Of a stretch of 37,957 bases of DNA, positions 2,218 through 36,380 are shown piece by piece; within the stretch, counting starts at the first letter, position 1, and each line of letters starts with the position of its first letter. Origin of the DNA: Candidatus Poribacteria bacterium (GTDB lineage: Bacteria > Poribacteria > WGA-4E > WGA-3G). Both the position numbers and the translations under genes were made by a program. The notes under the pieces were generated by a model that saw nothing but the letters and a program-made list of their open reading frames with translations, was not told the origin of the DNA and did not search any database. Where the stretch lies: positions 1 to 37,957 of the forward strand of contig JAAXHI010000460.1 in assembly GCA_012270875.1 (NCBI GenBank), given 5' to 3'.

Positions 2218-2772
2218 ATGCGAATTCGTTCAACAACGATTTTAGCCGTTCGGCGTGATGGTCAGGTCGCTATTGGTGGCGATGGTCAAGTCACGCTCGG
2301 AGATACAGCGATTAAACACGGCGCACGCAAAATTCGCAAGATCCATAGCGACAAAGTGCTAATCGGTTTCGCAGGTTCCGCATCGGATGCAATCACGCTG
2401 TATGAAAATTTGGAGAAGAAACTTGAGCAGTACCGTGGTAATCTCCAAAAAGCGGCAGTAGAACTCGCACGGGAGTGGCGAAGCGATAGGGTACTCAGAC
2501 AAGTAGACGCGCTAATGATCGCCGCAGATGCCGACGACGGCTACCTCATTTCAGGGAACGGCGATGTAATTGCCCCTGACGACGATGTGATCGCTATCGG
2601 TTCCGGTGCGTCTATTGCCCTCGCAGCCGCGAAAGCCATGCTCAAATACTCGGACCTGACTGCAGAAGAGATTGTTTCAGAAGCACTCCAACTCACAAGT
2701 GAAATTTGTATCTATACGAATGCTCGAATTGAAATTGACACAATAAAGGAGGAGTTAACAGTTAACAGTTAA
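2218..2772 (+). CDS. hslV: ATP-dependent protease proteolytic subunit HslV
   Basis: TTILAVRRDGQVAIGGDGQVTLG (catalytic Thr after short propeptide MRIRS), GFAGSASDAITLYE, AIGSGASIALAAAKAML, EICIYTN. Confidence 0.97.
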   Translation: MRIRSTTILAVRRDGQVAIGGDGQVTLGDTAIKHGARKIRKIHSDKVLIGFAGSASDAITLYENLEKKLEQYRGNLQKAAVELAREWRSDRVLRQVDALMIAADADDGYLISGNGDVIAPDDDVIAIGSGASIALAAAKAMLKYSDLTAEEIVSEALQLTSEICIYTNARIEIDTIKEELTVNS

Positions 2773-2861
2773 CAGTTGCAAGTGGGATCGGGTTCACCAA
2801 ACGCCTTTCGGTAACCCCAACGTCTCTTAACTGAAAACTGATGACTGATGACTGATAACTA
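2754..2861. repeat. Heptad inverted-array element, site A (hslV-hslU junction)
   Basis: 3x GTTAACA at 2754-2774; right arm TTAACTG AAAACTG ATGACTG ATGACTG ATAACTA at 2827-2861. Contains the hslV stop codon. Confidence 0.7.
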
Positions 2862-2869
2862 ATGAAACC

Positions 2870-12631: not shown

Positions 12632-12728
12632 GAGGCGACTCTACGGAATGAGACTTCAAGTGTCAAACCCACCTAACCGAACCGCAAGGAAATTTAAAAA
12701 AACCGAACCGCAAGGAAATTTAAAAATA
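12632..12728 (+). repeat. CCGAACCGCAAGG dispersed repeat, copy 1 (3' unit duplicated)
   Basis: GGAGGCGACTCTACGGAATGAGACTTCAAG...CCTAACCGAACCGCAAGGAAATTTAAAAA, then a second ACCGAACCGCAAGGAAATTTAAAAA offset by 26 nt; similar sequence at 36312-36380. Confidence 0.75.
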
Positions 12729-15358: not shown

Positions 15359-15425
15359 GTTATCAGTTATCAGTTATCAGTTACAAGAGATTTTTGATAA
15401 TCCCAATGTAAGTACTGATAACTGA
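15359..15425. repeat. Heptad inverted-array element, site B
   Basis: 3x GTTATCA at 15359-15379 then GTTACAA; opposing ACTGATAACTGA at 15414-15425; further matching heptads CTGACGACTGATAACTAC beyond the MITE at 15571-15588. Confidence 0.7.
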
Positions 15426-15439
15426 AAGATTTTTTTCTA

Positions 15440-15554
15440 ATGAAGTTTAATAAAATATTTGGGTGATTCTATATTTTCCCCAGGCCCGGTAGGTTCGGTT
15501 TCCTAACCGAACCGGACTTCCCTAAAATTACCCGATTAAATTCTTAATCTTCAT
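15440..15554. mobile_element. MITE-like palindromic element, copy 1 (~115 bp)
   Basis: Imperfect terminal inverted repeats ATGAAGTTTAATAAAATATTTGGGTGATT / AATTACCCGATTAAATTCTTAATCTTCAT, central hairpin GGTTCGGTT-TCCT-AACCGAACC; near-identical to 26701-26816. Confidence 0.8.
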
Positions 15555-15590
15555 ACGAAAAAAATCGTACTGACGACTGATAACTACTTG

Positions 15591-16569: not shown

Positions 16570-16686
16570 TCTAAATAAATACTTCTCATTAACGAAAAGC
16601 CGGTTCGTAGTTGCGCAATTCATTGCGCTCTTACAGAATAGCGTTCCAAAATCTCTATAATGTGACTTTATTTTTCAGATTTGGTA

Positions 16687-16802
16687 TTAGTTATAAGTTA
16701 TTAGTTACTGTGCTGTGGCATTGAGATATGCTGTGGCATCCACAATAAAATTGAATGCCACAAGATGGTAACTAAAAACCAACAACTTATAACTAACAAC
16801 TA
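16687..16802. repeat. Heptad inverted-array element, site C
   Basis: Left TTAGTTATAAGTTATTAGTTAC (16687-16708) versus reverse complement of right TTAGTTATAAGTTGTTGGTTTTTAGTTAC; arms differ in length by 7 nt. Confidence 0.75.
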
Positions 16803-16934
16803 TTAGAAAAGTTTATACGCAATTTAGCACAACTTCGGGGCATTGTAAAGGAAATTTGTTTCAGGACAACACCATTAAGTTCTCCCGAAAATCCGCTAAA
16901 TTACCTTGCAATTTTGGCGTACCCAAGCACAAAA

Positions 16935-17053: not shown

Positions 17054-17193
17054 TTAAGGTAAATTAAAAAACAAAAACATAGCCTTGAACAACTTTCAAG
17101 GCGGAACTACGGAAATTAAACTTATTAATCAGAGCAACCTGACCGAACCGCAAAGTAAATTAAAAAACACCGAACCGCAAGGTAAATTAAAAA
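17054..17193 (+). repeat. CCGAACCGCAAGG dispersed repeat, copy 2 (diverged, tail unit repeated)
   Basis: AAGGTAAATTAAAAAAC; hairpin CCTTGAA-CAACT-TTCAAGG; GGCGGAACTACGGAA; ACCGAACCGCAAAGTAAATTAAAAAAC; ACCGAACCGCAAGGTAAATTAAAAA. Confidence 0.65.
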
Positions 17194-30530: not shown

Positions 30531-30534
30531 GGGA

Positions 30535-30630
30535 TGGCTATCAGCTGTCGGCTATCAGCAATCAGTTAAGAGGGTTCCGATAAAGTTAGACTTCTCTTAC
30601 TGACTGCCGACGGCTGACCGCTGATAGCCA
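30535..30630. repeat. Heptad inverted-array element, site D
   Basis: Left TGGCTATCAGCTGTCGGCTATCAGCAATCAGTTAAGAG; reverse complement of right TGGCTATCAGCGGTCAGCCGTCGGCAGTCAGTAAGAG. Confidence 0.85.
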
Positions 30631-30642
30631 TTAGGAGGAACA

Positions 30643-32709
30643 ATGAGTTTTTTGCAACCGTTAGCATTAATCGCACTCCCCTTAATGGCACTGCCGATCA
30701 TTATCCATCTAATCAATCAGCAGCGGCACCGGACCGTCCCTTGGGCAGCGATGATGTTCCTAATGCGTGCGAAGCGTATGAGCAGAGGCATGGCACGGCT
30801 TCGGCATCTGCTTATCCTATTAATGCGTGTCCTCGCTATCGGTGCTTTGATTTTTGCGATTAGCCGTCCACTGTCGGGTGGCTGGTTAGGAAGCGTCGGA
30901 TTGAGTAAGCCGGATGCCACGTTGATTCTTCTCGATCGCTCCGCCAGTATGGAAGTCCAAGACCTGCAGGCGGGAGAGTCAAAAAGATCCACAGCACTGA
31001 AACGGCTCGCGCAATTATTGGAACAAGGCGATTACGGAACACATTTGCTGCTAATTGACAGTGCCAGCGGGCAGCTGCAAGAAGTCGATTCACCGAAAGC
31101 ACTGTTGGGTCTACCGATGACCGAAGCCAGTGCCGCCAGCGCGAATATTCCGGGGATGCTTGAGACGGCTTTGGCGTATCTCAAGGCAAATGAGTCAGGA
31201 CGCGCCGAAATCTGGATCTGTTCGGATTTGAAGGAGAACGATTGGGATGTCCATAGTGGTCGCTGGAACGCGATGCGTGAGGAATTCGCTCAGTTGGAAG
31301 GTGTCCACCATTTCTTGCTGGCATATACAGATCCACCTGCCAATAACTTATCGGTCCGAGTGGAAAACGTACAACGCTGGGAACGTGGCAACGCTGCAGA
31401 ACTCCTGCTTGATGTAATCGTGCGCACCGAGGGTGAAGTCCCGTCTCTTACGACCGAAGAACGCAGTGTGGTGCGGCGCGTGCCGATTGAATTTGAAGTC
31501 AATAACGTGCGATCCGTGGTTGAAGTGGAGCTTGACACGCTCGGTGCGTCTTTGAAAGGACACCGCATCCCTATTGATACGAAACTTAGTTCGGGGTGGG
31601 GATCGGTGAGTTTGCCGGGTGATGCGAACCCGTTGGACAATCGGTTTTTCTTTACCTTTTCTGAACCGCCGGTACGAAAAGCAGTCGTCGTCAGTGATGA
31701 CCCAAAAGTGGGTGAAGCGTTCCGTAGAGCACTTGCTATTCCGACAGATGTTCGACTACAACACCATGTTGATGTGATGCCTATGAACCGAGTCGCCGAA
31801 ATCGACTGGGAAAATACTGGATTGTTGATTTGGCAGGGAACACTACCAAGCGGGTTGGTAGCGGAACAGATTCAGCATTTCGTCAATAACGGACGCGTGG
31901 CTATGTTCTTTCCGTCGAAGTTACGCACACAAACCGCTACGGGTAAGCCATTCTTTGCTTCACGCTGGGGAGATTGGCAATCTACTACGGGTGAACAGTC
32001 CGATACAACAGGCGATATCTCGTGGTGGCGTGGCGATGCGGATATACTGGCACACGCAGAGAGTGGAGATGCTTTGCCGTTGAGCGAACTCCGTACCTAC
32101 CAATATCGCACCTTTGAGAGCCAAGGGACACTCTTGGCAAGGTTTGACAACGATGCACCTTTACTAACACGGGTGGCTACCGATCAGGGAGCAGCATATT
32201 TTTGTAGCACACTCCCGACAGCACAATTTTCTTCGCTCGAACGGGACGGTGTCGTCTTTTATGTCATGTTACAACGGGCATTGGCTGAAGGGTGTCAGAC
32301 GTTGGCTGTCGCATCGCAACGCGACGCAGAAATTGATGCCCTCGCTGACCGAAATCAGTGGGAACCTGTGGCGCCTGCTGAGGACAATGCGTCTCTCTCA
32401 CAACGTGGATTACATGCAGGCGTTTATCGAGACGAGGCGTATTGGGCAGCTGTCAATCGCAGCCAAGCGGAGGACACTGCAAAGACATCGCCGCTTGAGA
32501 CGGTTGACGCGTTGTTTGATGGGTTGTCGTACCGGAGAATTGATGTTAATGTCGGCGATACATCCGCCTTAGCGAGTGAACTCTGGCGTATCTTTCTCAT
32601 AGCGATGGCAATCGCACTCATTCTGGAAGCGGTGCTGAGTTTGCCGAGCCGAAAAACCGAAAGCAGCCCCTTAATAGATCTCGCAGTCGCGGAGGGAACG
32701 ACAGAATAG
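30643..32709 (+). CDS. BatA-type membrane protein with VWA-like domain
   Basis: FLQPLALIALPLMALPIIIHLINQQRHRTVPWAAMMFL, ATLILLDRSASMEVQD, C-terminal TM segment. Confidence 0.88.
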   Translation: MSFLQPLALIALPLMALPIIIHLINQQRHRTVPWAAMMFLMRAKRMSRGMARLRHLLILLMRVLAIGALIFAISRPLSGGWLGSVGLSKPDATLILLDRSASMEVQDLQAGESKRSTALKRLAQLLEQGDYGTHLLLIDSASGQLQEVDSPKALLGLPMTEASAASANIPGMLETALAYLKANESGRAEIWICSDLKENDWDVHSGRWNAMREEFAQLEGVHHFLLAYTDPPANNLSVRVENVQRWERGNAAELLLDVIVRTEGEVPSLTTEERSVVRRVPIEFEVNNVRSVVEVELDTLGASLKGHRIPIDTKLSSGWGSVSLPGDANPLDNRFFFTFSEPPVRKAVVVSDDPKVGEAFRRALAIPTDVRLQHHVDVMPMNRVAEIDWENTGLLIWQGTLPSGLVAEQIQHFVNNGRVAMFFPSKLRTQTATGKPFFASRWGDWQSTTGEQSDTTGDISWWRGDADILAHAESGDALPLSELRTYQYRTFESQGTLLARFDNDAPLLTRVATDQGAAYFCSTLPTAQFSSLERDGVVFYVMLQRALAEGCQTLAVASQRDAEIDALADRNQWEPVAPAEDNASLSQRGLHAGVYRDEAYWAAVNRSQAEDTAKTSPLETVDALFDGLSYRRIDVNVGDTSALASELWRIFLIAMAIALILEAVLSLPSRKTESSPLIDLAVAEGTTE

Positions 32710-36134: not shown

Positions 36135-36171
36135 TAGTATTTCGGGATTATACAATTAAATCAGTGGAATA

Positions 36172-36240
36172 GTCGTCAGTCGTCGGCGAGAGGTTCTTTG
36201 CTGATGGCTGATGGCTGATAGCCGATAGCCGATGGCTAAA
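36172..36240. repeat. Heptad inverted-array element, site E
   Basis: GTCGTCA GTCGTCG GCGAGAG ... CTGATGG CTGATGG CTGATAG CCGATAG CCGATGG CTAAAAG. Confidence 0.8.
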
Positions 36241-36311: not shown

Positions 36312-36380
36312 AGGCGGATCTACGGAATGGGACTTTCAAATCCAAATCTGCCTAACCGAACCGCAAGGAAATATAAAAAA
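36312..36380 (+). repeat. CCGAACCGCAAGG dispersed repeat, copy 3 (supplies the ribosome-binding region)
   Basis: AGGCGGATCTACGGAATGGGACTTTCAAATCCAAATCTGCCTAACCGAACCGCAAGGAAATATAAAAAA immediately followed by ATG. Confidence 0.75.

Follow-up and report, generated by a model that had tools for sequence, protein, structure and literature searches.

Paired heptad arrays between Poribacterial genes as probable terminal arms of small IVP insertion elements

The stretch of DNA analysed here (contig JAAXHI010000460.1, 37,957 nt, hereafter the window) comes from a bacterium whose named relatives are Candidatus Poribacteria, mostly sponge symbionts, and holds five sites, A to E, at which a tandem run of 7-nt units can pair with an inverted run nearby. 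We consider it probable that such heptad pairs mark the two inverted ends of small insertion elements that sit between cistrons and carry a gene of the IVP/S23 family (23S-rRNA-intervening-sequence protein, or 'four helix bundle protein'; TIGR02436, PF05635), and that the five window sites are gene-less copies. A full element would consist of a left heptad array, an IVP gene of about 120 codons encoding a four-helix bundle, and a right heptad array, and the window sites would be internally deleted or non-autonomous copies of it. Four observations carry this reading: IVP genes are bracketed by matched heptad arms, an arrangement strongly enriched in several phyla; decayed ends of IVP genes lie in the orthologs of site D; near-identical plasmids differ in which gaps are occupied; and the IVP gene is placed on the sense strand between co-directional genes.

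Heptad arms and the gene between them

Site D separates co-directional DUF58 and BatA genes within a MoxR-DUF58-BatA cluster. The original prediction described inverted arms of heptads at 30535-30630, and the sequence there matches that description, except that the spacing of about 20 nt becomes 32 nt with a repeat finder, which returns two 33-nt arms that are 82% complementary; the inner AAGAG/CTCTT pairs as well. The predicted RNA fold has an energy of -54.9 kcal/mol (z = -7.9) for the + strand and of -55.5 kcal/mol (z = -9.6) for the - strand, and none of 200 shuffled sequences did as well. Tandem 7-mers were also found at the four further sites named in that prediction (2754, 15359, 16687 and 36172), at 2753-2777 and 2828-2860, 15359-15383, 16685-16707 and 16770-16802, and 36200-36237. 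All four sites can fold into long hairpins, and the prediction's picture of a conserved plan with differing 7-mers is right; it overlooked the gene present in full elements. The window sites thus have complementary ends that form a long stem, as 23S rRNA intervening sequences (IVSs) do, yet no Rfam family matches anywhere in the window and site D does not lie inside an rRNA gene.

The DUF58-BatA gap varies strongly among species. In several of them a reading frame starting MQDFKKLQVW occupies the space between the arms, and this frame belongs to the IVP/S23 family (TIGR02436, E = 4e-40); its structure model (pLDDT 94.5) has a TM score of 0.95 to XCC0516 and also matches BT_0352. The orthologous gaps form a decay series of this gene, from nearly full length (L057) through a partial copy (L090) and one with an internal deletion (L088, positions 1-42 and 189-360) to C-terminal ends only (L071, L081, L095, L070), the remnants being detected with a DNA profile for which 0 of 200 random control stretches were significant. 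Other gaps hold heptad pairs built on a different unit (GTTATAA, GTTATCA, GCTNTCG) or one half of an element with some other repeat behind it, and among the gaps with no heptads are L091 and L098. Two further variations were seen among these and related loci. Four of the closest relatives (L055, L056, L058, L059) lack the right arm of site D and have a repeat beginning CTGGTGAAAAATCCAAAACGTAAGCCCGTAATG after the left arm, and the heptad arms of L061, L064, L065, L067 and L211 are interrupted by a small palindrome resembling GTACGATTTTTTCTACGAAAAAATC.

The association of IVP genes with heptad arms extends well beyond this gap. The 73 IVP loci scored came from Poribacteria and, by way of plasmids, from Cyanobacteria, Azospirillum, Riemerella and Gemmatirosa (the groups covered include Alphaproteobacteria, Bacteroidota and Gemmatimonadota); the score was the best inverted match between both flanks, with 232 ordinary genes as the baseline. 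The median score was 33 for IVP genes compared to 16 for ordinary genes, and 48 of the 73 loci, made up of 29/50 Poribacterial and 19/23 plasmid loci, exceeded the 99th percentile of the latter. As many of the Poribacterial loci are orthologs, the comparison was repeated with a single Poribacterial locus kept for each insertion site and remained significant (Mann-Whitney p = 3e-9). Seven of eight IVP loci from IMG/VR, two of them near-duplicates, scored 31-46. The arms are heptad arrays, with a self-identity of 0.57 at lag 7 versus 0.22-0.35 at other lags, and a minority have a period of 8 or 10. Furthermore, the unit is specific to the element (AAAGCTA, GTCAGGA, GGGAACA, AAGGTTC and others). 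The sole relative inserted in an rRNA gene, L251, is an IVS within an Azospirillum 23S rRNA gene and has heptad arms of the same kind.

The original prediction held that the arms diverge together or are rewritten from one another, which the evidence supports in part. In its favour, the arm's own partner ranks first among all 22 in 15 of 22 plasmid elements, where one would be expected. The compensatory changes that it proposed as a check did not appear: no compensatory pairs were found at the hslV-hslU site followed through seven species, where the covariation term was unfavourable, and selection for such changes is therefore not supported at the only site that could be followed. At the MWHI site the right arm has been re-homogenised (TGGTAAC, TGGAAAC, TGGTTAC) and the left arm is mostly still GTTTCCA. 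To a large extent the sites differ because elements with different units were inserted independently.

Insertion, inheritance and gene-less copies

An operon gene is 99.7% identical in two Nostoc plasmids, yet the plasmids have distinct IVP elements, and these occupy different gaps. The two IVPs are 36% identical, the arm unit is GTCAGGA in one gap and GGGAAAA in the next, and each of these gaps is near-empty and free of any array in the other plasmid. This shows that discrete units were inserted, by whatever route. Between co-directional genes, the IVP gene is read in the direction of its neighbours in 37 of 39 Poribacterial loci (37:2, orthologs included) and in 15 of 18 plasmid loci (15:3). 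In the IVP tree most Poribacterial IVPs cluster by insertion site, which indicates that many of these insertions are inherited, and the gap preceding the MLEL gene seems to have received more than one insertion.

Within the genome of the window, a pattern of three degenerate heptads gave 96 matches (about 75 sites) as opposed to 24 for a reversed-pattern control, and the predicted recurrence of the arrays elsewhere in the genome is thereby strongly borne out. All 24 genomes from the genus contain the pattern, which exceeds its own control in nearly all of them, G010 being among the exceptions in which the reversed control is the more numerous; in 16 genomes of other families it is close to zero. 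Array structure was examined at 31 sampled sites of this genome. A strict inverted-alignment test had little power, with only 3/31 arrays above threshold, and was therefore replaced by a test of duplex energy in which the downstream side served as the control. By this test the array pairs better with the upstream than with the downstream 150 nt at 23 of the 31 sites (Wilcoxon p = 1.7e-4), and inverted pairing is thus a general, though imperfect, feature of the arrays.

Several shared features link the gene-less pairs to IVP elements. Site C has an 18-nt heptad stretch in common with L202, an intact IVP element in this genome. The motif CTCTT, with which the IVP gene is associated at its 3' end, stands before the right arm at 10/31 sites of this genome compared to 1/31 in the control (p = 0.006). 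In G038, from another genus, a gene-less pair and an IVP element have the same unit, GATTGAC. From these features we infer that the window copies, which hold no recognisable IVP remnant, are gene-less derivatives of IVP elements.

A number of observations weigh against the interpretation of the heptad pairs as arms of IVP elements. Besides the lack of a remnant in the window copies, the DNA profile gave no significant match at the array sites of this genome, which has two intact IVP genes for about 75 array sites. When each insertion site is represented by one Poribacterial element, just 11 of 28 rise above the 99th percentile set by the ordinary genes. Three IVP genes (L230, L286, L289) have no detectable arms, and a fourth (L231) has an array on one side only. 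Neither a transposase nor a clear target duplication was found; the only candidate duplication is a doubled ATG at one Nostoc site. Finally, RNase III (PF00636, PF14622), the enzyme that cuts out related inserts in 23S rRNA, was detected in none of the 74 genomes searched from the order (families f1-f4), the host included.

The excess of gene-less pairs over IVP genes would be easier to understand if the heptad hairpins were an independent repeat family, made up of mobile hairpins or slippage products, in which IVP genes merely insert or survive best, and the leaders of L211 and L217, which hold a complete extra hairpin upstream of the IVP gene, point the same way. An independent family would not, however, account readily for an element-specific unit that is matched on both sides of the gene in many phyla, even within a 23S rRNA gene, or for the Nostoc gaps, which without an IVP are near-empty and have no array. 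We regard this alternative as unlikely, and favour the derivation of the pairs from IVP elements. The heptad elements have terminal inverted repeats, as do miniature inverted-repeat transposable elements, but the gene of the full elements is IVP and not that of a parental transposase. For the Y1 transposase that accompanies repetitive extragenic palindromic (REP) sequences and REPINs, termed RAYT, the genome gave a single weak match.

RNase III and a possible mechanism

In the classic account of IVSs, pairing of the arms in the transcript allows RNase III to excise the insert, which is thereby rendered neutral. This holds for the IVSs of 23S rRNA (PMC4990558), and the strong fold of site D would suit it. 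RNase III is nevertheless present in 10 of 12 genomes from the other orders and classes of the phylum, and in 8 of 14 control genomes, so that its absence from the 74 genomes, several of them closed, looks like an order-wide loss. Because the enzyme is undetected across the whole order, RNase III excision of these elements is unlikely, and of the explanations considered here neutrality by excision is the least probable.

If the heptad pairs are the arms of IVP elements, the element would move as a unit, and the arms would serve for recognition and as a stem structure, either in DNA or in the operon transcript. The IVP model resembles Avd, the reverse-transcriptase partner of diversity-generating retroelements (TM about 0.80, with a weak profile match), and IVP may act on this stem, possibly together with a reverse transcriptase acting in trans. 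The likeness to Avd is one of fold: sequence identity is about 10%, and the profile match reaches 25.3 bits compared to a cut-off of 80 for the Avd equivalog model. No retroelement was seen at the window sites; retroelements beside IVP genes were not searched for. This genome (G000) has 13 reverse-transcriptase domain matches, possible partners of an Avd-like IVP, and with the Avd-like fold they make an RNA-based route thinkable. A stem of tandem units would need complementarity and not a fixed sequence, so that the sequence could drift and the plan stay, which fits the conserved plan and drifting sequence of the arrays.

A broader version of this idea is that the heptad tandem repeats of many phyla are the ends or remains of one RNA-mediated insertion class, in which an Avd-like IVP would bind the heptad stem of an operon transcript, to be copied into new intercistronic gaps by a reverse transcriptase acting in trans, with the 23S rRNA IVSs as a special case. 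We offer this as a tentative proposal that may well prove wrong.

Relation to known repeats and further features of the window

The closest known relatives are the IVSs with an S23 open reading frame in the 23S rRNA of Coxiella and Leptospira, whose complementary ends form a long stem from which RNase III cuts the insert, and which have been proposed to be mobile or selfish (PMC4990558). They share with the present elements the protein family and an insert bounded by complementary ends, and the Azospirillum IVS extends the likeness to heptad arms. The elements described here differ in lying between protein genes, in having many gene-less copies, and in a host order in which RNase III is undetected; the IVP/S23 reading frame is missing from the window copies and is found in orthologous gaps and other elements.

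Tandem direct heptads between genes occur in the window and throughout the genome, as they do in the TAACTGA repeats of Beggiatoaceae, Cyanobacteria and Bacteroidetes, for which MacGregor 2015 (PMC4679880) gives no mobile-element source. There the repeats were proposed to regulate post-transcriptionally, as sites bound by S1, Csp or Csr-like proteins immediately before start codons, and such a role for the present arrays would be suggested by the shared heptad TAACTGA, by the shared intergenic position, often directly upstream of start codons, and by the right arms here, which often finish a few nucleotides before a start codon. The TAACTGA repeats are direct, however, with one inverted among 170 sets, and the sections consulted give no link to IVP genes; here upstream pairing prevails at 23/31 sites. 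In addition, the arrays in this genome are commonly paired and inverted with varying units, their presence at one gap differs among close relatives, and no common gene function was noticed, which together make regulatory repeats a very improbable explanation.

The GGGAATC heptads of Xanthomonas form 70-75 closely spaced inverted pairs per genome and were interpreted as G-quadruplexes generally unassociated with mobile elements (PMC4692102). They resemble the present arrays as heptads in inverted pairs and differ in their unit; X. campestris does have an IVP (XCC0516). The partial analogy drawn by the original prediction to the short tandemly repeated repetitive (STRR) sequences of cyanobacteria, likewise 7-nt tandem units between genes, pointed in the right direction, as IVP elements of cyanobacterial plasmids have heptad arms; the link is made through these elements and not through STRR sequences themselves. 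In the open-access literature we found no paper that connects heptad arrays to the family of four-helix-bundle proteins, and an earlier report in a subscription journal is possible. The elements look like a widespread, barely noticed intervening-sequence type outside rRNA genes, with heptad arms. Such a type would join the heptad repeats of Cyanobacteria, Xanthomonas and Beggiatoaceae, a widespread 'four helix bundle protein' family that had no known role, and the origin of the 23S rRNA IVSs, whose mobility has long been suspected; the protein family would gain a testable role and the heptad repeats a source.

Table 1. Arms and loop of the five heptad sites in the window
Feature	Coordinates	Strand	Description
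Site A left arm	2752..2779	+	GTTAACA x3, hslV-hslU gap
Site A right arm	2828..2863	+	ACTGAAA ACTGATG ACTGATG ACTGATA ACTAAT; TCTCTTA just before
Site B left arm	15359..15383	+	GTTATCA x3.6, between two convergent genes
Site B inner right arm	15414..15428	+	ACTGATAACTGAAAG
Site B outer right arm	15569..15586	+	ACTGACGACTGATAACTA; past nested second inverted repeat
Site C left arm	16685..16707	+	18 nt GTTATAAGTTATTAGTTA, same as left arm of L202
Site C right arm	16770..16808	+	AACTAAAAACCAACAACTTATAACTAACAACTATTAG
Site D left arm	30534..30566	+	GCTATCA GCTGTCG GCTATCA GCAATCA; begins 3 nt past DUF58 stop codon
Site D loop	30567..30598	+	inner AAGAG...CTTCTCTT; corresponds to position of IVP gene or remnant in orthologous gaps of other species
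Site D right arm	30599..30631	+	inverted heptads ACTGACTGCCGACGGCTGACCGCTGATAGCCAT; stops 11 nt before BatA-like start codon at 30643
Site E left arm	36170..36187	+	TAGTCGTCAGTCGTCGGC
Site E right arm	36200..36237	+	GCTGATG x2, GCTGATA, GCCGATA, GCCGATG

The second inverted repeat nested in site B (15428-15566) has 44-nt arms that are 77% complementary, with a CCGGTAGGTTCGGTTTCCTAACCGAACCGG core. Among the IVP elements of cyanobacterial plasmids, three (L242, L243, L245) lie in CRISPR neighbourhoods, in the orders cas6-IVP-cas4 and cas10-IVP-cmr3, and an IVP gene is also found in a sufA-sufB neighbourhood, where sufA is the name that we give to an iron-sulfur accessory gene. Finally, boxes of the form ACCGAACCGCAAGGTAAATTAAAAA, some of them in tandem, lie shortly upstream of genes at 12675-12726, 17142-17193 and 36352-36380; they recur in other Poribacterial gaps and are possibly promoter-like or a repeat family.
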